NCBI RefSeq assembly: GCF_003315245.1
Contig: NZ_QNRT01000003.1
Location: 310,947 to 374,946, forward strand
Origin: Arenicella xantha
Lineage (GTDB): Bacteria > Pseudomonadota > Gammaproteobacteria > Arenicellales > Arenicellaceae
DNA: 64,000 bases
Reading direction: 5' to 3'
In this document: piece by piece, positions 53,997 through 62,915 of the stretch
Layout: the number at the start of each line of letters is the position of its first letter
Position numbering within the stretch: the stretch's first letter is position 1
Translations under genes and position numbers: made by a program
Notes under the pieces: generated by a model
Databases searched by the model: none
What the model saw: the letters and a program-made list of their open reading frames with translations, nothing else
What the model was told of the DNA's origin: nothing

Positions 53997-55163
53997 ATGA
54001 ACCTACTGATGGTCGAATTTTACAATCAAAATGTTACCAGAATGCTTCCGCTAACCAGAGAAATGATATTGCTTTGCAAGGCTGTGCAATATTGTCGAGA
54101 TGGCACCGAAGATTTAGAGTGGGTTCACGGTAATATTGAAATGGATAAGTTGACCCGGCTTGCGCGCAGGCACGGTGTAATAGGCATGGTGATGCCCTAT
54201 TTAGAACACCGCGCCTGCGAATTTGAAACGTTGATTGCTAATTTAAAGCCACTGCTGGTACGGCAGGTGATTTTAGAAGCATTGAGATTGAAGCAACTGG
54301 AGGGTTTGGTCGGTGCATTTGAGAAACACAATGTTAGTTATGTGGTCTTCAAAGGCCTAGCCGTAAATGCGCAGATGTGTGATGCGCCAATCTCCACTCA
54401 GAGGTTTAGCACCGATATAGATTTACTGGTGAACCCCGCGGACTTTCCGCAATTGGTCAGCATCATGCACCAAAGGGGCTACTACTGCATTGACTGTGAC
54501 AACGCTTCGGATGTCGCGCATTTTGCCTCACATTCTGCAGATGAGTTGGTTAAACGAGGCTTGGTATTTCGACACCAAGACCGCCACGTGGCCGATGTGG
54601 ATGCTCACTGGCGTGTCGCCAATACCTTTTCGCTGCCATTGTCTACCGCCACCGTCTTAGGGCATAAACAGTCGACACAGATTAATGGGGTTAGGGTGTT
54701 TGCACCGAGCTTTGAGCATCACTTTTTGATCTTAACAGTGCACGGCTATCTTGATTACTTTTATCAATTAAAACACTTGGCTGATTTGCATTATGCTATG
54801 CAGCATGCCGAATACAATGAAGCCAAATTGTTTACTCTCGCGAAGGAGTTTGGGATATCACAACATCTAGCTGAAAGCATTGAGCTAGTCCATGTTCTAC
54901 TCGAAGGCAAAGTAAGTGATCTGCGCAACTCATCTCGCTACGTGCGAACCACCATTGAGCGTTATCAGACTCATCACGGTTTGCCGCCGCGAGCGCATAA
55001 ATCGCATGACAACTGGACTCTAATCGACAAGCTTAGCTATATTTTAAGGCAGATTAATACTCGCAGTTGCAAGGCTAGCCTCATTGCACCGATACAGAAC
55101 AGGCTGTTAGTAAAGTTTCAGCAAGTACCTAAGCACGACTCCGTGCAATCACCCATGAGCTAG
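53997..55163 (+). CDS. Nucleotidyltransferase of lasso-type clusters (NTP_transf_5)
   Basis: The 388-aa protein has the uncharacterised nucleotidyltransferase fold (PF14907): F118-K119-G120 followed by the metal-binding R136-F-S-T-D140-I-D142-L-L-V pattern. Members occur in kinase-type lasso peptide clusters, such as that of pseudomycoidin, where they extend the phosphate on the C-terminal Ser. It is followed after 29 nt by the B2 protease gene. The start has only a weak TAGG site; ATG at 54009 is an alternative. Confidence 0.75.
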   Translation: MNLLMVEFYNQNVTRMLPLTREMILLCKAVQYCRDGTEDLEWVHGNIEMDKLTRLARRHGVIGMVMPYLEHRACEFETLIANLKPLLVRQVILEALRLKQLEGLVGAFEKHNVSYVVFKGLAVNAQMCDAPISTQRFSTDIDLLVNPADFPQLVSIMHQRGYYCIDCDNASDVAHFASHSADELVKRGLVFRHQDRHVADVDAHWRVANTFSLPLSTATVLGHKQSTQINGVRVFAPSFEHHFLILTVHGYLDYFYQLKHLADLHYAMQHAEYNEAKLFTLAKEFGISQHLAESIELVHVLLEGKVSDLRNSSRYVRTTIERYQTHHGLPPRAHKSHDNWTLIDKLSYILRQINTRSCKASLIAPIQNRLLVKFQQVPKHDSVQSPMS

Positions 55164-55192: not shown

Positions 55193-55669
55193 ATGACACT
55201 AAGAGAAAAAGTATCTTTCGTTTGGCATTTGCCATGGAGGCGCAAGAAGTGGCTTCTTTACTGCTTTGTAAGCTCGGCTCTTGCTTCGTTTGTAGTCAGT
55301 GCTCTGCCATCAAAATACCTAAAACACTTTCTTGGTTACCCACTGCGAAACAAAGAGCTTTGCGTGTTAGCCACGCCTACACAGCTTCTGCATGCTAGGC
55401 AGGTCGCTTCTCTTATGAAGACGGTTTCGAGTAATGTGCCGTGGCCATGTGAATGCTTGGTGCAAGCCTTGTGTGTCAATTGGTTATTGAATCGGCAAGC
55501 GCTGCCATGGGTGACTTACCTTGGTGCAAGCTTAGAAGCAGGCGCCCAGCCTAATATGAAAGCGCATGCTTGGGTGTGCGTTGGGCCCCACACCATTATT
55601 GGTGATAGGAGAGACCAGTTCCCAATTGTGGGCACGTTTACGTCTTCAGACTTATCAGAGTTTGAGTAA
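55193..55669 (+). CDS. Lasso peptide B2-type leader peptidase (transglutaminase-like)
   Basis: The 158-aa protein belongs to Transglut_core3 (PF13471), the family of B2 proteases that cut off the precursor leader and hand the core to the cyclase. The catalytic Cys is C88 in WPCECLVQAL. The His is H125 in KAHAWVCVG, and the closing strand FPIVGTF gives the third position. A basic, hydrophobic N-terminus (VWHLPWRRKKWLLYCF) may touch the membrane. It ends two nt before the convergent binding-protein gene. Confidence 0.85.
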   Translation: MTLREKVSFVWHLPWRRKKWLLYCFVSSALASFVVSALPSKYLKHFLGYPLRNKELCVLATPTQLLHARQVASLMKTVSSNVPWPCECLVQALCVNWLLNRQALPWVTYLGASLEAGAQPNMKAHAWVCVGPHTIIGDRRDQFPIVGTFTSSDLSEFE

Positions 55670-55671
55670 AT

Positions 55672-56805
55672 TCAAGCTATTTGATAAGGGTTTACCCAGC
55701 CTTGTTTCTGCGTGTTTTTCTGGGCTAGGGCATAGTGCTCATGGCAAAGTTCAGGGACGTCATGCTCAGTCAAAGTTTTATTATGCAAAAGCCCCGATTC
55801 GTCTCTACAGACCTCTCGTATGTAGTATTTCGCAGGCATGTTCTTCGCGTCCTGATTAAAACGGGTGCAGCCACGCGGGCCTGAAATTTTCGCATGTTCT
55901 AAGGCGTTAATAAGTGATGCGTATGACTGGTCAGCTGCTGAGTCCAGAGCGTCGACTATTAATTTTACAGATTCGTATGCCATGACAATGTGTGGGTGCG
56001 GCAAGCGCCCTGTTTGTGCCTTAAAATCGGCCGAAAAGCGTTGATACTGTTCGGAGTCGGTTTCATGTGAGCCAACGGTTTTTGTGCCTTCAATACGTGA
56101 CCCCAATTGATTTAAAGTTGGCTCTTCCACAAAGGGTGGCAACGTGAGCAATGGGCTTTCTAGCTCCGCTTGTTCAGCATCACGCAAAAAATTGATCGCT
56201 TCTTTGCTGGAATGGTGCGCGATAATGGCGTCGGGTTCCATTTTATCGAGATACTGAATAAATTCTGAGCAGTCTTCATCGGCACTGTCCATATGAGTTA
56301 CCTGTGAGAGCTTAACATTTGCGCCACCGGCTTCGGCGCCTACTGCCACGGCAAGCGGAACTCCATAGCCGCCATCATGACGAGCATACACGGTAGCCAA
56401 GTCTTTGAATCCCAGTTGAGCGGCGTAATACCCTGTAAGCCATGCGTTTTGCCAAAGCTGATATGAATTCACAAAGACAGATTCGTTTGCAGCCGAATCG
56501 AACAGCACGTCTTCGCCCATGGTGTTGACTAGCAGTGCCGTTTCTTCTGATCTGCACAGCTCATTTACTGATTCAATAAGGCTGGAGTTGAGCGGGCACA
56601 ATACAGCATTGAGGTTTTCGCGAATAATCAAGCCCTGTATTTTATCTTTCAGGAATCCGGCATCTTCATTGTATCCACCGGATTCAAAACATAATTTTAC
56701 CCGATCACTAGAGTCTCCAAGCCCCATTTTACAAGCTACGGGCAGGTCACGGCTAAGGTGGGGTAAGAAGGACGATTGTGGGATGATGATTCCTAAATTG
56801 AACAT
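55672..56805 (-). CDS. Periplasmic-binding-protein fold (UrtA/LivJ-like) without signal peptide
   Basis: The 377-aa protein has the type I binding-protein fold of Leu/Ile/Val, amide and urea receptors: N-terminal NLGIIIPQSS strand, LTGYYAAQLGFKDLATVYA, MEPDAIIAHHS, and a C-terminal SGPRGCTRFNQDAKNMPAKYYI (the G-x-x-x-F-x-x-d-g-h-N segment). It starts directly with the first beta-strand; no signal peptide or lipobox is present. It is probably cytoplasmic, acting as a sensor (as AmiC does) or as a structural partner. First seen after the collar gene on the same strand. Confidence 0.7.
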   Translation of the reverse strand: MFNLGIIIPQSSFLPHLSRDLPVACKMGLGDSSDRVKLCFESGGYNEDAGFLKDKIQGLIIRENLNAVLCPLNSSLIESVNELCRSEETALLVNTMGEDVLFDSAANESVFVNSYQLWQNAWLTGYYAAQLGFKDLATVYARHDGGYGVPLAVAVGAEAGGANVKLSQVTHMDSADEDCSEFIQYLDKMEPDAIIAHHSSKEAINFLRDAEQAELESPLLTLPPFVEEPTLNQLGSRIEGTKTVGSHETDSEQYQRFSADFKAQTGRLPHPHIVMAYESVKLIVDALDSAADQSYASLINALEHAKISGPRGCTRFNQDAKNMPAKYYIREVCRDESGLLHNKTLTEHDVPELCHEHYALAQKNTQKQGWVNPYQIA

Positions 56806-56924
56806 GGGCAGCCGCCTTAATATAGATGGTGGTTAGTTGGTCTGTATTTAATAAAGAGGGAGCAATCAAGGCTCCCTCTAATTAAAGCATTTTTACCTAC
56901 AAAGTCTTATATAGGCGCTTATCA

Positions 56925-57455
56925 CTAGCTTCTTGATGGGTAGAGACCCAGCATTGCTATGCACATATAGATGCCCAAGTAGGGGTTTTTAATGTCTACT
57001 GGCAAACCGCTACCAGAGTTTGCGCACGTAATTGATTCAGCCGCCATAGCCTTATTTTCAGCAGGGACGGGCGCCGCATAGCCAGTGTGACTTGCCAGCA
57101 TATTGCCCAATGGATTGTTCAGGGTTGCGGGTGCTGTTTCGCCGTGAAGAATCACCGTATGATTGTGGGAAGGCAGATTTTGAACTGTAAGTGTCACTGA
57201 CTCGTGACCACCTTTCTGCCCCCAGACTACCGTCTGAAGTCCAGGGCCAGAACCGACCCCCTTCATAACGCGCCCTCTTAAGTCCGGCAAGCCAAACGTG
57301 GTTCTGCCGTCGCCACCAAATTTGGTGCCAAGCAAGGAAAATAGTGCAGTATTACTCGAAATAGCGAGTAGCTGGCCGTCGCATAGGGACCAGCCGCGTG
57401 GTGCAAAATTAAAGCCAACTGGCATAATTTCGCCGATAAATGGATTGCTGCTCAT
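56925..57455 (-). CDS. Phage tail-collar domain protein (MdpB-like)
   Basis: The 176-aa protein is a stand-alone tail-collar (PF07484) protein. It has FIGEIMPVGFNFAPRGWSLCDGQLLAI, then LFSLLGTKFGGDGRTTFGLPDLRGR, then a variable Ser/Gly/Ala-rich tip. Such short MdpB-type proteins are encoded outside prophages in many bacteria and are often secreted or surface-associated; their role is unclear. A strong GGAGGT site is present. It is downstream of the 94-aa acidic protein gene. No other phage gene is nearby. Confidence 0.85.
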   Translation of the reverse strand: MSSNPFIGEIMPVGFNFAPRGWSLCDGQLLAISSNTALFSLLGTKFGGDGRTTFGLPDLRGRVMKGVGSGPGLQTVVWGQKGGHESVTLTVQNLPSHNHTVILHGETAPATLNNPLGNMLASHTGYAAPVPAENKAMAAESITCANSGSGLPVDIKNPYLGIYMCIAMLGLYPSRS

Positions 57456-57513: not shown

Positions 57514-57798
57514 TCAGCCTCCGACCAGTTCCTTTTCTGCGTTCTGTTCAAATGCCTCATGAAACTCCTCAGGCAGCGCTGCAAGAACCATGCTCTTTTG
57601 TTCTTCTTGAGTAGGTGGAGACTCCGCTGTCGGAAGTACAGAGTCGATGTCAATCTCGTCTTTAATCTCATCGGGTAGGTCGTGCAGAATTTGTTGTTTT
57701 GCTATTTCGATGTCACCAGGTTCAACATCGCAATTCTCTAAACACTTTTCTGCGTGTTCTTTTAAGTCATCTGGAAGCTGCGACCGGATAGCCTCCAT
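57514..57798 (-). CDS. Small acidic protein with three LP[DE][DE] repeats
   Basis: From ATG 57798 (GGAAG six nt upstream; a TTG at 57810 is possible) the 94-aa protein is rich in Asp/Glu. It contains three imperfect repeats spaced about 33 residues, each centred on L-P-[DE]-[DE] at residues 8-11, 41-44 and 75-78, with following amphipathic helices. It ends in E-L-V-G-G. C20 and C23 are the only cysteines. I recognise no family. It is the first gene of the minus-strand trio inside the cluster, so it may be a partner, or even a substrate, of the enzymes. Confidence 0.6.
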   Translation of the reverse strand: MEAIRSQLPDDLKEHAEKCLENCDVEPGDIEIAKQQILHDLPDEIKDEIDIDSVLPTAESPPTQEEQKSMVLAALPEEFHEAFEQNAEKELVGG

Positions 57799-58065
57799 AT
57801 TTGCTTCCAAGCTTTTTTAGCATTACTCATTTACTAAGTTCCTCAATATGAATCTGTTAGATGACAAATACATCGTATGCGGCTCAATCAATAACTACAT
57901 GTGTAGAGCAAGAGTTAGCCTCTGCTACTCATTTGAGCATCGTTCGGTTACACAACGCCATTACACGCCATTACATCTGCCTTGTTCTGGTTTACAATCG
58001 AGATTAGGCTAGCCACTTGTTTGTTTAGAATTTGGTCAAATTTTATAGAGGAAAGCTTTTACTCC

Positions 58066-58300: not shown

Positions 58301-58429
58301 GTGAAGAGGTTTGAAGGTTTTTTTAAACTCCAACAACATGATAAAACCGTGTGCCAAAGCTTGGGTGATCATAATTTGATTGCTAAATACGGTGTAACTC
58401 AAAAAACACCAATACAGATGAACCCATGA
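58301..58429 (+). CDS. 42-aa ORF coupled to the cyclase, possible precursor or leader ORF
   Basis: GTG start at 58301 preceded by a perfect AGGAGGT (58290-58296), and a stop that overlaps the cyclase start as ATGA. This is the best translation signal in the cluster. Residues 26-37 read L-I-A-K-Y-G-V-T-Q-K-T-P, faintly like the L-x-x-x-G...T part of lasso leaders. Only five residues (I38-P42) follow, with no acid, so it is not a normal lasso precursor. Using T16 as the -2 Thr would put an Asp at core position 6, too early for a known ring. It may be a divergent precursor or a coupling ORF. Confidence 0.55.
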   Translation: MKRFEGFFKLQQHDKTVCQSLGDHNLIAKYGVTQKTPIQMNP

Positions 58430-60276
58430 TCGCAGGCGCCTTTCCGCATGATTTTAGCAATGAAGAAGAGTCTACTAGGCTGGTGGAGGTCGATGATCTA
58501 CTCGATCAGCTATGCGCCACTGATTTCCCAGCTCTGTCGGAATTACCTCATGATACGAGGCAGGTTTACCGAGACAATCGGGTCGCGTTAATTCAGCAGT
58601 CGGTTACCAACACGCTGCCGCAAAGTCTCGCGCATTGTACAGAGACTGGGCAAGTCTGCGTCTGTTGGTCGTATTTAGAAAATCCCGCGGAAATCAGCGG
58701 TCATTTTCTGACTGAATCGGGCTCTAATACAAATGACGCTTCGTTTGTTTTAGCTAGTTATCAAAGGTGGTCGGAGGATTGTCCAAAGCGCATTAAGGGG
58801 GCGTTTGTTTTTGCAATATACGACCCTAAACGTCAGATGTTGCTGTTAGCTAGAGACCGACTGGGCCTCAAACCACTCTATTATTCTGTTGATTCCCCAT
58901 GTTTTCTGTTTGCCTCAAACGCCGCAGCGATAGCTAGATTGGACGGGGTGAACAATCAGCTTTCAAGCGATTGGATAGCGCAACACTTATTCAAGCATTA
59001 CTCTGATAGCTCGAGTACGGGGTTTGCTAACATCAAGAAGTTGCCCGCTGGTCACATGCTAATACTTAAAAGCGAAAATGATGTTGTTAGGCCGAGGGTG
59101 AAGGCTTATTGGCGATTAGAAGAGCTATCCAATAGCTCTGTGCAAGCGACCGAGGCAAGCGACCTTGTTGAAGAATATCGTCGTAGTTTTGACAGAGCTG
59201 TTGCTAAGCGAAGCTTAAGTAATTACCCATTAGGGGTCGAGCTGTCGGGTGGTTTGGATTCTTCTTCGATAATGGCGTCGCTGATGGAACAGTCGCCAAG
59301 CAACAAAATGCACTGTTTTAGCCGCGCTTTTTTTTCATTGGAACCAGAGCCCATCGCAGCGTTAAATCAATGTTACCCGGATGCTCAGTACCATTTATGG
59401 GGTGACCCCGAAAGTACAGGCCTTGCGTACCAAGCGGACTTAGCTCGCTATGTCGAGTTATTTGGCTTACCCGACGAGCACTCATTGGCAATTGGGTGCG
59501 CTAACTTTCTACGGGTTGCTAAGCAAAACAATGTTAAAACGTTGCTAAGTGGTTACGGTGGAGATGAATTTTCAAGCTCTCTAGCACATGACACAGCCCT
59601 GCAATTAGCGGATCAGGGTGATTTTATGGCTCTTTTCACTCGCCTGTCTGGCAACCCTATTAGACGTTTAAAAACTATCTACAACCTAGCATTTCGGCAA
59701 CCAAGTGTATCGAGCTATATGCCGAAAATGCTTAAGTTGGATCATCCCGCCCTCGTGGCCGTGCAGCAGCGCCAACAAGAGTATTCTCTGAGTAGGAGTA
59801 ATACAAAAGATCATAATACACGCATGGTTCAACGATGGCGCCACGGCAATGTGCTGCGTTTGGAGTCTCATACATTAGCGGCGACGGCATTTGGCGTGTC
59901 TTTTCACTGGCCATTTCTGGATGAAGATTTGTTGGCGTGTTATTTTAGGTCGCCAGTAACGGAACGACTTGGTATCGGTAATAAAACTCGCTGGCTGCAT
60001 CGGCGTGCGCTTGCTGGGCGTTTGCCGAAAGCGATTCTTGACAAGAATAATAAAGATGTTGGTGTGCTCCGTAATGGGCAAAACCCTCATGAGACATTTA
60101 TGCAGCGCCTACCTGGTAAAATTGATGTACATTCTGCGCTACAATCAATGGTTGATGCTGAAGAGTTAAACCAGTTTTTAAGCTCGCCCACAAATGAGCA
60201 AAAACAGCAGCCGGCTTATCGACTTACCGCAAAAACAATTTACAGTATCAATGTGTGGCTACACTCCTTTTTTTAA
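58426..60276 (+). CDS. Lasso peptide cyclase, asparagine-synthetase-like (C protein)
   Basis: The 616-aa protein has an N-terminal class II glutaminase-like fold without the catalytic Cys2 (starts M-I-A-G-A-F), with RIKGAFVFAIYD and LLLARDRLGLKPLYYS. The ATP-pyrophosphatase domain carries the PP-loop SGGLDSS at 274-280 and LSGYGGDEF. Lasso C enzymes of this kind adenylate the ring Asp/Glu side chain and close the macrolactam with the core N-terminus. Its start overlaps the 42-aa ORF and the kinase gene follows at 29 nt. A true glutamine-dependent Asn synthetase is less likely because Cys2 is missing. Confidence 0.85.
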   Translation: MIAGAFPHDFSNEEESTRLVEVDDLLDQLCATDFPALSELPHDTRQVYRDNRVALIQQSVTNTLPQSLAHCTETGQVCVCWSYLENPAEISGHFLTESGSNTNDASFVLASYQRWSEDCPKRIKGAFVFAIYDPKRQMLLLARDRLGLKPLYYSVDSPCFLFASNAAAIARLDGVNNQLSSDWIAQHLFKHYSDSSSTGFANIKKLPAGHMLILKSENDVVRPRVKAYWRLEELSNSSVQATEASDLVEEYRRSFDRAVAKRSLSNYPLGVELSGGLDSSSIMASLMEQSPSNKMHCFSRAFFSLEPEPIAALNQCYPDAQYHLWGDPESTGLAYQADLARYVELFGLPDEHSLAIGCANFLRVAKQNNVKTLLSGYGGDEFSSSLAHDTALQLADQGDFMALFTRLSGNPIRRLKTIYNLAFRQPSVSSYMPKMLKLDHPALVAVQQRQQEYSLSRSNTKDHNTRMVQRWRHGNVLRLESHTLAATAFGVSFHWPFLDEDLLACYFRSPVTERLGIGNKTRWLHRRALAGRLPKAILDKNNKDVGVLRNGQNPHETFMQRLPGKIDVHSALQSMVDAEELNQFLSSPTNEQKQQPAYRLTAKTIYSINVWLHSFF

Positions 60277-60305: not shown

Positions 60306-61220
60306 ATGAACTATTATATTGCCTACGAATTGTATGTTTGCTCAGATGTTGAAATACCTGAGTTATCGCCTTGGTTAAATGGCTCAGAAGAAGAGGCAGA
60401 TGTTCTAATTTGTGAAGCTGATATTCAAAAGGATCAGAAAGAGGCGATTTCGCAGGTAGGCCCTTTTCTATATGTTGACACCAATAACGTCTTTCTCGAG
60501 GTTCCGGATATTGCTCAATTCTGGGTGGAGTCAGGTAGGCGCATCGCTTACCAAATGTCTGAAGGCAGCAGCGAAGAGGACCTTAGGGCTTTTTTGCTTG
60601 GCTCATGTATTGGCGCTTTGTTAATGCAACGCGGCCTTTTTCTATTGCATGGCAGCAGCATTCAAATTGGTGAAGGCTGTGTGGTTTGCGTAGGCCACTC
60701 TACGGCCGGTAAATCAAGCCTTGCTGCAGCGTTTATGCAAGATGGTTATTCAATAGTATCTGACGATGTTTGCGCTATAAGCGCGGAAGGGGAGGTAATC
60801 CCAGGGATTCCCCGCATAAAAATAAACCAAGATATCGCGCAATCACTCAAGATCAACACCGACACTCTTAGAACGGTACGCGCTAACTGTGATGGCAAAT
60901 TTTCGTTACCGCTTGATAAGCAGTTTAGCTCTAAAAGACTGCCTTTACTGGCTATTTATGAAATGTTACCAGAGGTCGGCGAGGTTACCATTTATAATGA
61001 CTTAAACACCTTTGAGTGTTTTTCGGTACTTCAAAAGCACCTTTACCGACCCCGCTATTCAAAGGCCATGGGCAAAGCCCAATTCAACCTTCAGCATTGT
61101 GGTCAAATAGCCGCGAGCACGCGAGTTTCTCGTATTCATCGGCCTAGGTTTCAGCTTACTGTTAAAGAGTTACCAACTCTTATTCTTCAGAACCTGCATC
61201 AATTAAACGAAGCATCGTGA
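60306..61220 (+). CDS. HPr-kinase-like lasso peptide kinase (K protein)
   Basis: The 304-aa protein has an HPr kinase-type P-loop. HGSSIQ (115-120) leads into Walker A G130-HSTAGKSS, and SDDV at 152-155 forms the acidic motif, as in the cores of HprK-like enzymes. In paeninodin-type clusters the homologue phosphorylates the C-terminal Ser hydroxyl of the precursor. The 51-aa precursor candidate at 62613 ends in Ser, consistent with this. It lies between cyclase and sulfotransferase genes. Confidence 0.82.
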   Translation: MNYYIAYELYVCSDVEIPELSPWLNGSEEEADVLICEADIQKDQKEAISQVGPFLYVDTNNVFLEVPDIAQFWVESGRRIAYQMSEGSSEEDLRAFLLGSCIGALLMQRGLFLLHGSSIQIGEGCVVCVGHSTAGKSSLAAAFMQDGYSIVSDDVCAISAEGEVIPGIPRIKINQDIAQSLKINTDTLRTVRANCDGKFSLPLDKQFSSKRLPLLAIYEMLPEVGEVTIYNDLNTFECFSVLQKHLYRPRYSKAMGKAQFNLQHCGQIAASTRVSRIHRPRFQLTVKELPTLILQNLHQLNEAS

Positions 61221-61254
61221 TGTCTGAATTTTCTTGAATTAGTATTTGATAGAT

Positions 61255-62145
61255 ATGTCAAGCGGCAATGTGAAAAATGGTTCTCATGATTTTTTTTGGT
61301 TAGCTTCTTACCCGAAGTCCGGCAATACTTGGTTTCGCATTTTTTTGACCAGCTTATTCAATGGCGAGAACACGCCATTGGATATCAACAGCCTTGGCCA
61401 TGGTCAGGTTCCTAACCTTAGACGTATTTTAGATGAACTAAATGGGTTCGACTCAGTGGATCTTTCATTTGATGAGCTCAATTGTATCCGCACCGAGGGC
61501 TTGCGTTGGCTAAGCCAAACTAACCAGTCCAATGTCTATTATAAAACTCACGCCGCGTATACCTATAACCAAAATAATCGCCCAGTCTTGGGCGGGCGAT
61601 GTGACGGCATTGCGGGTGCGCTGTACTTTATTCGAAACCCCTTAGATGTATGCATTTCTTATGCGCATCACGCCGGCGTCAGCGTTGATAAGTCGATTGA
61701 AGTCCTGGCTAATGGTGAGCTTAAAAGCCAGTCTCTGCATGGCAATATACACATACCAGAAGATGTTCTTTGTTGGTCTCAGAATGTTAAGAGCTGGCTA
61801 TCTACAGAGGATTTGGCAGTCACGGTGATTCGTTACGAAGACATGTTGGTCGAGCCTATGACAACGTTTAGTAAAGCTTGTGAGTTTCTAAATATCGACA
61901 CTGATTCTAAGCAGATTCAACGAGCCCTAGTAAGCTGTAGCTTTGAAAATTTGCAAAAACAAGAGCAGGTGTCTGCTTTTGTCGAAAAGCCTGCTCGCTC
62001 ACCAAATTTTTTCCGCAAGGGCATTGCTGGAGATTGGCAGAATACACTCAATACGGAGCAAATAGACAAAATAGTCGATCGTCACGGCAGCATGATGAAA
62101 CAGTTTGGCTACCTCACTGAACACGGTGTGCCAAAAGTCAGCTAG
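61255..62145 (+). CDS. PAPS-dependent sulfotransferase
   Basis: From ATG 61255 (an in-frame TTG at 61246 is an alternative) the protein is 296 aa. The 5'-phosphosulfate loop is YPKSGNTW at 19-26 and the 3'-phosphate motif is FIRNPLDVCISYAH. The C-terminal FRKGIAGDWQN matches R-K-G-x-x-G-D-W of cytosolic-type sulfotransferases. It has no signal peptide, so it acts in the cytoplasm. It may sulfate a Tyr, Ser or Thr of the peptide product. The cluster contains a second sulfotransferase start in the fusion at 62916. Confidence 0.87.
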   Translation: MSSGNVKNGSHDFFWLASYPKSGNTWFRIFLTSLFNGENTPLDINSLGHGQVPNLRRILDELNGFDSVDLSFDELNCIRTEGLRWLSQTNQSNVYYKTHAAYTYNQNNRPVLGGRCDGIAGALYFIRNPLDVCISYAHHAGVSVDKSIEVLANGELKSQSLHGNIHIPEDVLCWSQNVKSWLSTEDLAVTVIRYEDMLVEPMTTFSKACEFLNIDTDSKQIQRALVSCSFENLQKQEQVSAFVEKPARSPNFFRKGIAGDWQNTLNTEQIDKIVDRHGSMMKQFGYLTEHGVPKVS

Positions 62146-62186: not shown

Positions 62187-62501
62187 ATGAGGTACAAACT
62201 AGTATTAAGAAAAATGACAAAAGAAGACAGAATCTTACAGCGTAACAACGATTTAATTCACGCGAATATGGGTGAAGAAACAGTGTTAATGAGTTTGAGC
62301 AATGGTGAGTATTATGGCATCAACGACGTAGGTTCGACTATTTGGAACTTATTGGAAAATAGCTTGAGTGTCCAGCAGCTAATTATTCAATTGACCGATA
62401 TTTATGGCATCAGTGAAGAGCAATGTAATCGAGAGATCGGAGGGTTTCTCGATGATATGGAAGAAAAGGGGCTATTAATTATTGAAGAACAAGCCAGTTG
62501 A
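62187..62501 (+). CDS. PqqD-like RiPP recognition element (B1 protein)
   Basis: The 104-aa protein is a PqqD/RRE winged-helix domain: ETVLMSLSNGEYYGINDVGSTIWNLLEN followed by QLTDIYGISEEQCNREIGGFLDDMEEKGLL. B1 proteins bind the leader, in particular the aromatic-x-x-P-x-L segment, and present the precursor to B2. An internal ATG at 62214 (MTKEDR) would give a more typical length. The split B1/B2 arrangement, with B2 7 kb upstream, is unusual. Confidence 0.85.
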   Translation: MRYKLVLRKMTKEDRILQRNNDLIHANMGEETVLMSLSNGEYYGINDVGSTIWNLLENSLSVQQLIIQLTDIYGISEEQCNREIGGFLDDMEEKGLLIIEEQAS

Positions 62502-62625
62502 CTCTGACTATCTAACCATTGGACTGCCTCTGTCTGGCAGATGCGCTGGCATTGATGAAGTGGAACTAAAACTTGATAAAGGTGATTTTACTGTGTTCTG
62601 GTCGACTGAGCACTATGAGGTTTGA
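62482..62625 (+). CDS. 47-codon ORF overlapping PqqD end (doubtful)
   Basis: A TTG-started frame overlapping the last 20 nt of the PqqD gene and the last 13 nt of the opposing precursor gene. The product looks protein-like (LPLSGRCAGIDEVELKLD, FTVFWSTEHYEV) but has no start signal or family. It may be a remnant of a lost cluster gene. Confidence 0.2.
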   Translation: MKNKPVDSDYLTIGLPLSGRCAGIDEVELKLDKGDFTVFWSTEHYEV

Positions 62626-62768
62626 TAAAAAGCACCTTCAAAATTAGCGATACTGAAAGTACCAGTCTTTGTTTGATCCATCGAAATTACGGTCAACTCC
62701 GGCACTCTCCAAACTGGTTTGTCTTCCTGAGTTGAAGTGGTAACTTCTTTTCTTTCGTCATCTTGCAT
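62613..62768 (-). CDS. Candidate lasso precursor peptide (paeninodin-like leader), 51 aa
   Basis: A short gene with ATG at 62768 and a GGAGAG site about ten nt upstream. After a charged N-terminus the leader reads W20-x-x-P23-x-L25-x-V27, then Q32-T33-K34-T35, the aromatic-x-x-P-x-[LI]-x-V...T pattern bound by PqqD-like B1 proteins in kinase-type lasso systems. The last 16 residues (G36-S51) begin with Gly, contain a single acid, E44 (ninth from G36), then G45-A-F47-Y48 bulky residues and end in Ser51, the expected kinase target. It is divergent from the hydroxylase fusion and convergent to the PqqD gene. Strand and small size would hide it from automatic gene callers. Confidence 0.78.
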   Translation of the reverse strand: MQDDERKEVTTSTQEDKPVWRVPELTVISMDQTKTGTFSIANFEGAFYQTS

Positions 62769-62915
62769 GAGATGTTCTCTCCGTCACGTGTGAATATTTT
62801 TATGATTGATTGAATCGTTTCAACTCGCGAAAAAGACCAATCACGCTTCCATGGGGTATTTTACTCATATAGACTTGTTAAAAACAACGCCTACTCGATG
62901 ATTAATTGATATCTG

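Follow-up and report, generated by a model that had tools for sequence, protein, structure and literature searches.

Described kinase-type lasso peptide systems used for comparison include paeninodin from Paenibacillus (PadeA/K/B1/B2/C), the SyanA/SyanK-type phosphorylated lasso peptides of Proteobacteria and the BsfA system of Bradymonas. Paeninodin combines a [W/Y]xxP leader bearing Thr at index 13 (PMC11594732) with an HprK-like kinase that acts on a C-terminal Ser (PMC8498205, PMC9266682), split B1 and B2 proteins (PMC5067487), a nucleotidyltransferase gene typical of the family (PMC13381572) and a ring of 9 residues; its precursor is printed in a table of PMC11594732 and its core in a table of PMC12427821. 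Kinases of this type modify the linear precursor, and polyphosphorylation has been reported for SyanA/SyanK-type peptides (PMC8498205, PMC9266682). BsfA likewise has a kinase and separate B1 and B2, and an altered cut-site residue, Ile at -2, has been shown for it (PMC10368454). Putative sulfotransferase genes beside kinase-type lasso clusters of Firmicutes have been noted already (PMC8498205). A 2026 paper describes paeninodins as restricted to Bacillota, with Trp in the motif of nearly all precursors, and gives the lasso RRE motif as [Y/W]xxPx[L/V/I/F/A] (PMC13381572). Structurally characterised lasso rings have 7, 8 or 9 residues according to a 2026 review, which also reports lower production when a ring is changed by one residue (PMC13352647). 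A literature search for rings above 9 residues or for sulfated lasso peptides, most subscription journals being outside its scope, found nothing relevant.

The window analysed here is a stretch of 64,000 nt from Arenicella xantha (NZ_QNRT01000003.1, positions 310,947 to 374,946), and it carries a lasso-type cluster (Table 1) that shares with paeninodin the leader motif with Thr at index 13, the kinase together with a C-terminal Ser, the split B1/B2 and the nucleotidyltransferase-like gene. It differs from paeninodin in a predicted ring of 10 rather than 9 residues, in an additional sulfotransferase and hydroxylase-sulfotransferase, and in a precursor gene (A) placed on the strand opposite its enzymes. 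The kinase and C-terminal Ser are also shared with the SyanA/SyanK-type peptides, which were compared by description. BsfA resembles the window in its kinase and separate B1 and B2, but BsfK acts on Ser3, the predicted ring has 8 residues and the leader has Y-type spacing (PMC10368454).

Table 1. Features of the cluster, in window positions, with the basis of each assignment
Feature	Position	Strand	Basis or remark
Nucleotidyltransferase-like gene (N)	53997..55163	+	PF14907 1e-31
B2, leader peptidase	55193..55669	+	NF033537 51.6 bits, cut-off 33; CLVQA and AHAW motifs
Periplasmic-binding-protein-like gene, within cluster	55672..56805	-	PF13458; kept in G002
Collar-domain protein, within cluster	56925..57455	-	PF07484; kept in G002
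98-aa protein, without Pfam match	57514..57810	-	Kept in G002, 67% identity
C, asparagine-synthetase-like macrolactam cyclase	58426..60276	+	PF00733, PF13537; NF033535 4.9e-60
HprK-like kinase	60306..61220	+	PF07475 1.1e-5, below cut-off; LHGSS, GHSTAGKSS and SDD motifs
Sulfotransferase	61246..62145	+	PF00685 1.6e-25; YPKSGNTW and RNPLD motifs
B1, PqqD-like leader-binding protein	62187..62501	+	PF05402 5.5e-16; NF033536 75.3 bits, cut-off 80
Precursor peptide A, 51 aa, ATG start	62613..62768	-	ORF list and G002 homologue in equivalent place
Predicted core, residues 35-51 (17 aa); ring T35-E44 of 10, tail to Ser51	62616..62666	-	Predicted
Predicted leader, residues 1-34, favoured register; T33 (62670-62672) as Thr(-2)	62667..62768	-	Relatives and printed paeninodin precursor
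WxxPxL motif WRVPEL, residues 20-25; predicted B1 binding	62694..62711	-	Sequence and motif of PMC13381572
Shine-Dalgarno-like GGAG, 10 nt 5' of precursor ATG	62779..62782	-	Sequence
Asp/Asn beta-hydroxylase fused to sulfotransferase domain, 632 aa	62916..64000, past window end	+	PF05118, PF13469 (read on L206:1863-3761); G002 homologue

An earlier note on this DNA had proposed a hidden 51-aa precursor gene on the minus strand, and this ORF was found with the sequence described there. The leader pattern (W20-x-x-P23-x-L25-x-V27 followed by Q32-T33), the Shine-Dalgarno, the single Glu near the C-terminus (E44, the sole acid downstream of residue 31) and the final Ser51 all read as the note had stated, and WRVPEL conforms to the lasso RRE motif. 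The gene lies tail to tail with B1 and diverges from the hydroxylase gene over 147 nt, so that a promoter of its own, separate from that of its enzymes, would be expected. In a second genome of the genus (G002) a homologue of 62 aa (E 8.8e-7; 49% identity over query residues 11-49) is encoded on the minus strand between B1 and the hydroxylase-sulfotransferase gene, as in the window, and ten neighbouring genes keep their order and orientation at identities of 44-75%. Given this homologue on the same strand, flanked by the equivalent two genes, the ORF is beyond chance and, on the evidence of synteny, is a real gene; its motifs and neighbours identify it as a lasso-type precursor adjoining kinase-type lasso genes. 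The note had expected the ORF to persist where its enzymes do, and G002 conserves it along with B2 and a full-length C. After the hydroxylase-sulfotransferase gene, with a one-base overlap, the genome of the window encodes a 398-aa protein without Pfam match (L206:3761-4957), in the place of which G002 has an ABC transporter gene (L018:11923-13674).

The lasso assignment of the enzymes was examined with NCBIfam and Pfam models. B2 passes the curated lasso cut-off, the best NCBIfam match of B1 is the lasso model, just under its cut-off, with PF05402 above cut-off, and C best matches lasso cyclase NF033535 (203.8 bits, cut-off 525), with PF00733 and PF13537 above theirs. All catalytic motifs looked for in the cluster enzymes were found. 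An HprK-like kinase and a C-terminal Ser, which the earlier note had named as the residue that kinase-type systems modify, are both present, and this assignment rests on motifs and neighbourhood since the PF07475 match of the kinase falls below cut-off. Three minus-strand genes (binding-protein-like, collar-domain and 98-aa) are placed between B2 and C.

The precursor is rare, with E < 0.01 only in its own genome and G002 among 100 genomes searched (own included). A three-row profile made from the precursors of the own genome, G002 and G080 gave matches at E <= 0.05 in 9 of the 109 genomes of the order (own included), strong in these three genomes, which supplied its rows, and weak in the other six (E 0.0095-0.033); a precursor profile run against 369 genomes of the class found the own genome and five weak matches only, of which the one in G186 (E 2.5e-4) entered the tally below as L029. 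Kinase relatives (E <= 1e-8) occur in 17 of the 109 genomes of the order, own included. A plasmid search using the precursor gave no match, and a scan of genome contigs using C gave no relative. G080, of the same order, holds two more distant precursor relatives adjoining lasso genes, with one C and two kinases. Its first precursor (L019/L003) has no start codon in the frame of the core, as could result from phase variation or assembly error, and was therefore left outside the tally. All four precursor genes found in G080 and locus L156 have a long C/G run within their 5' part or immediately ahead of it (L019:11031, 15 nt; L067:11992, 12 nt; L156:1314, 15 nt; L156:2546, 16 nt), and L156 carries further C/G runs elsewhere. 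In G006, of the same genus, locus L060 is a row of genes for kinase, sulfotransferase, Asn-synthetase-like, GNAT and collar proteins; neither B1 nor B2 was matched there, and a precursor could not be recognised. Five further kinase-bearing loci (L061, L062, L065, L066 and L102) also gave no recognised precursor, so the precursor survey is incomplete.

An alignment scan with the sulfotransferase returned at least 572 relatives from many phyla, and the best 80 of these were retained for study of their loci. By tblastn, these best 80 loci contained the kinase in 69, B1 in 57, C in 50 and B2 in 42; kinase, sulfotransferase, B1 and C occurred together in 43, and the kinase lay directly 5' of the sulfotransferase in 55. 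Judged by motif and gene neighbours, the window ORF belongs to a group of W-type precursors that accompany kinase, sulfotransferase and lasso genes across many phyla. In contrast to the sulfotransferase clusters described in Firmicutes, the kinase-sulfotransferase pair is thus seen here in many other phyla, and so are W-type precursors, whereas paeninodins have been described as restricted to Bacillota. The paeninodin model NF033524 accepted none of 11 W-type precursors scanned, two of 10 relatives matching it weakly (12.5 and 14.0 bits, cut-off 27), and the window precursor matched no NCBIfam family at E <= 1, NF033524 included. In locus L062 (G395) the kinase-sulfotransferase pair stands beside YcaO, TfuA and PqqD genes, with no lasso cyclase match, from which the pair seems to be shared across RiPP classes. 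Collar-domain and binding-protein-like genes are found within the cluster in the window (55672-57455, minus strand) and in G002 (L018), and beside kinase, sulfotransferase and lasso genes in the cyanobacterium Petrachloros mirabilis (L102:648-2459); among the best 80 sulfotransferase loci a collar-gene match occurs in 11 and a binding-protein match in 1.

The earlier note had called the cut site ambiguous, and the conflict is genuine. Counting from the Tyr of YxxP as 0, paeninodin has Thr at 13, the core start at 15 and the ring-closing Asp9 at 23 (PMC11594732, PMC12427821); on the same count the window has T33 at 13, T35 at 15 and E44 at 24. With T33 taken as the conserved index-13 Thr, the homologous core start would be T35 and the ring to E44 would have 10 residues. 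The 13-residue aromatic-to-Thr spacing of paeninodin is also that of the W-type relatives.

Acid positions were tallied with a profile of 30 W-type precursors applied to small ORFs in the sulfotransferase loci and other fetched loci. Of the resulting rows 24 were dropped (duplicates, rows lacking the [W/Y]xxP pattern, and some by locus name) and 58 were kept, with an acid at ring position 7-9 in 49, only at 10-11 in 8 and none in 1. Later counts also omit L128 (short, no acid) and refer to 57 peptides, window included; 12 of these 57 have E > 0.1, and related rows are not independent. Thr stands at index 13 or 14 in 48 of the 57, and index 13 is occupied in the remaining nine by N (3), S (3), A (2) or V (1). 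The tally thus holds candidate precursors in which the expected Thr(-2) is replaced by Asn (three in tandem), Val, Ala or Ser (L117:11114-11747, L148:13358-13489, L180:1091-1267, L063:6657-6989, L087:8154-8399 and L204:14635-14826). Within the Thr-bearing 48, an acid occurs at ring position 7-9 in 41 (termed ordinary below) and only at 10 or 11 in seven (termed odd): the window (10), G002 (11), L116 (10), L120 (10 and 11), L129 (10), L159 (11) and L156:1199-1393 (10 and 11). L198, which has no Thr, carries acids at 2 and 10 only. At the other positions, 1-6 and past 11, acids are rare, with a frequency near 3% per site (57 peptides). The tally cannot count as unbiased, since an acid at index 21-27 partly guided the choice of the 30 profile seeds and all but one of the seven odd peptides served as seeds.

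Residues at the junction were scored by natural-log odds from the compositions of the 41 ordinary peptides, a score that ignores ring size and in which kin are not independent. Summed over the seven odd peptides it gave +27.8 for a core start equivalent to T35, -12.1 for G36 and -12.4 for T37, and the ordinary cut scored best in each of the seven; for the window the values were 2.46, -2.62 and 0.34. The residue two places after the Thr is G, S or T in 7/7 odd peptides (31/41 ordinary), and the next one is G in 6/7 (20/41 ordinary) and N in the seventh. The second Thr or Ser required for a register shifted by two is present in the window, G002 and L120, and the other four odd peptides have Gly there. 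Since the junction residues favour it in all seven, four of which lack the second Thr/Ser, cleavage is probably ordinary, and the ring size, at 10-11, would be the unusual part. No single rule yields both Thr(-2) and rings of 7-9 across all seven. For the window we consider it an even bet that cleavage falls between K34 and T35, with T33 at -2, and that the ring spans the 10 residues T35-E44; the earlier note had listed this register as an option that it did not prefer, and the relatives and paeninodin favour it. Against it count the characterised ring sizes of 7-9 and the production loss on one-residue changes (PMC13352647). A first residue T35, or equally T37, is disfavoured in that PMC12670498, when exemplifying the residues observed to open a core, names Gly, Cys, Ser and Ala but leaves out Thr; under the ordinary cut Thr is the first residue in 4 of the 41 ordinary peptides.

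Comparisons among relatives also speak for the 10-residue reading. L116 (acids at 3, 6 and 10) shares its leader and a TE|GG junction with L112 and L125, both of which have Glu9 (acids at 9 and 10); its enzymes are 64-65% (B2) and 60-64% (C) identical to theirs. L159, whose sole acid is at 11, opens with GGPGT (cf. AGPGT in paeninodin). Mapping the odd label onto a 41-row cyclase tree took at least 6 changes, and 53 of 500 shuffles were as low; the tree omits L159 and L190 (ORF length), labels L019 and L156 as odd though each also has an acid-9 precursor, and has long branches that make parts of it unsure, including the join next to the window. As the odd label is not clearly clustered on this tree, the extra residues seem to have had more than one origin.

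The main rival is an 8-residue ring starting at T37, in which T35 would be Thr(-2), the cut would follow G36 and the core would be TFSIANFEGAFYQTS (15 aa), with the Y-type spacing that puts the aromatic residue at -17. We regard it as rather unlikely, though worth serious attention. Its ring size lies within the known range, for the window taken alone T35 can indeed serve as -2, and G002 would receive Ser(-2) and a 9-residue ring. YxxPxL has been placed at -17 to -12 (PMC10368454, section 22), and among 11 Y-type precursors read by eye in kinase loci (ten within the order, plus L064 from elsewhere) the position 15 residues past the Tyr holds Thr in 10 and Ile in 1. Some W-type leaders share this Thr spacing of 15 (L096, L141 and L147, which the profile missed and the tally lacks). 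Opposed to this are the leader of the window, ISMDQT, which fits the index-13 type (cf. KMDQT in L194, with an acid at position 8), and the alignments of the G080 first precursor. The latter aligns to the window without gaps from T33 to E44. Its best partner is L156:1199-1393, with a score of 42 where the other precursor of L156 scores 31 (cyclases 52.6% identical), and this pairing too is gapless from Thr to Glu, with Gly in L156:1199-1393 at the place of the second Thr/Ser. Applied to all seven odd peptides, the shift would give E, T, T, G, P, P and H as first residues. Of what the earlier note had said of T37, the availability of T35 as -2 stands, while the junction score of the window is lower than for T35. 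A reading of T37 as certain residue 1, without tension, had been drawn from the Y-type -17 spacing and was dropped in view of the W-type relatives and the paeninodin spacing of 13.

The earlier note had preferred a cut after T35, leaving G36 as residue 1, a canonical 9-residue ring, T33 at -3 and T35 at -1, and had suggested a new leader-cleavage specificity. Gly is an accepted first residue (PMC12670498) and stands at the corresponding place in 6/7 odd peptides. This register nevertheless has the lowest junction score of the three for the window, would place E, H, K, L, Q, A and G at -2 across the seven and would still require 10-residue rings in G002 and L159. The G, S or T found two places after the Thr in all seven is typical of residue 1 and not of the variable -1 site, where these residues occur in 5/41 ordinary peptides. 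We thus consider a start at G36 improbable, and the proposed new specificity loses ground with it, as relatives and paeninodin put Thr(-2) at T33 with an ordinary cut.

Slightly less probable again is a product other than a classical threaded lasso, being either linear or cyclised without threading. HprK-like kinases do serve pathways to linear phosphopeptides that lack C (LPPs, PMC13381572), kinase and sulfotransferase adjoin YcaO/TfuA genes in L062, and C scores under the NCBIfam lasso-cyclase cut-off; set against this, B2 passes its curated cut-off, C is full-length, and both are kept in G002. That the ORF is a chance one is negligible as an explanation, small and apart from the plus-strand genes though it is, because its place, strand and motif are kept in G002.

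Returning to the 10-residue register, a bolder and wider reading is that the kinase/sulfotransferase lasso family includes rings of 10-11 residues with several origins, made after ordinary Thr(-2) cleavage by cyclases that count ring residues loosely, and that the window peptide has a 10-residue ring, is phosphorylated on Ser51 and is probably sulfated; we give this a probability of roughly 0.45. The chemical steps, the cut, the ring size and the modification targets are predicted from the genes, their synteny and the positions of Thr and acid. B1 would hold the WxxPxL leader of the precursor, and the kinase would phosphorylate Ser51 on the linear peptide. B2 would then cut after K34, with T33 at the usual -2 position, and C would join the T35 amine to the E44 side chain, giving a 10-residue ring (TGTFSIANFE) and a 7-residue tail (GAFYQTS). 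The sulfotransferase would add sulfate, perhaps at Tyr48, and the fused hydroxylase may act on Asn42.

Ser is C-terminal in 52 of the 57 tally peptides. Tyr occurs within the last 8 residues in 27 of the 57, lying 3-5 residues before the end in 22 of these, and its rate in the last 8 residues is about twice that in the rest of the core (0.072 and 0.032). This enrichment suggests Tyr48 as a candidate sulfation site, weakly, as 30 of the 57 peptides lack such a Tyr. The literature covered yielded no assay of the cluster sulfotransferase.

Natural precursors with an acid at position 10 or 11 but not at 7-9 would make the ring limit, and its determinant in the cyclase, directly testable. Ready comparisons for the ring limit are offered by L116 with L112 and L125, and by L129 with L139. 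Genome-mining rules that require an acid at 7-9 would overlook precursors of this kind.
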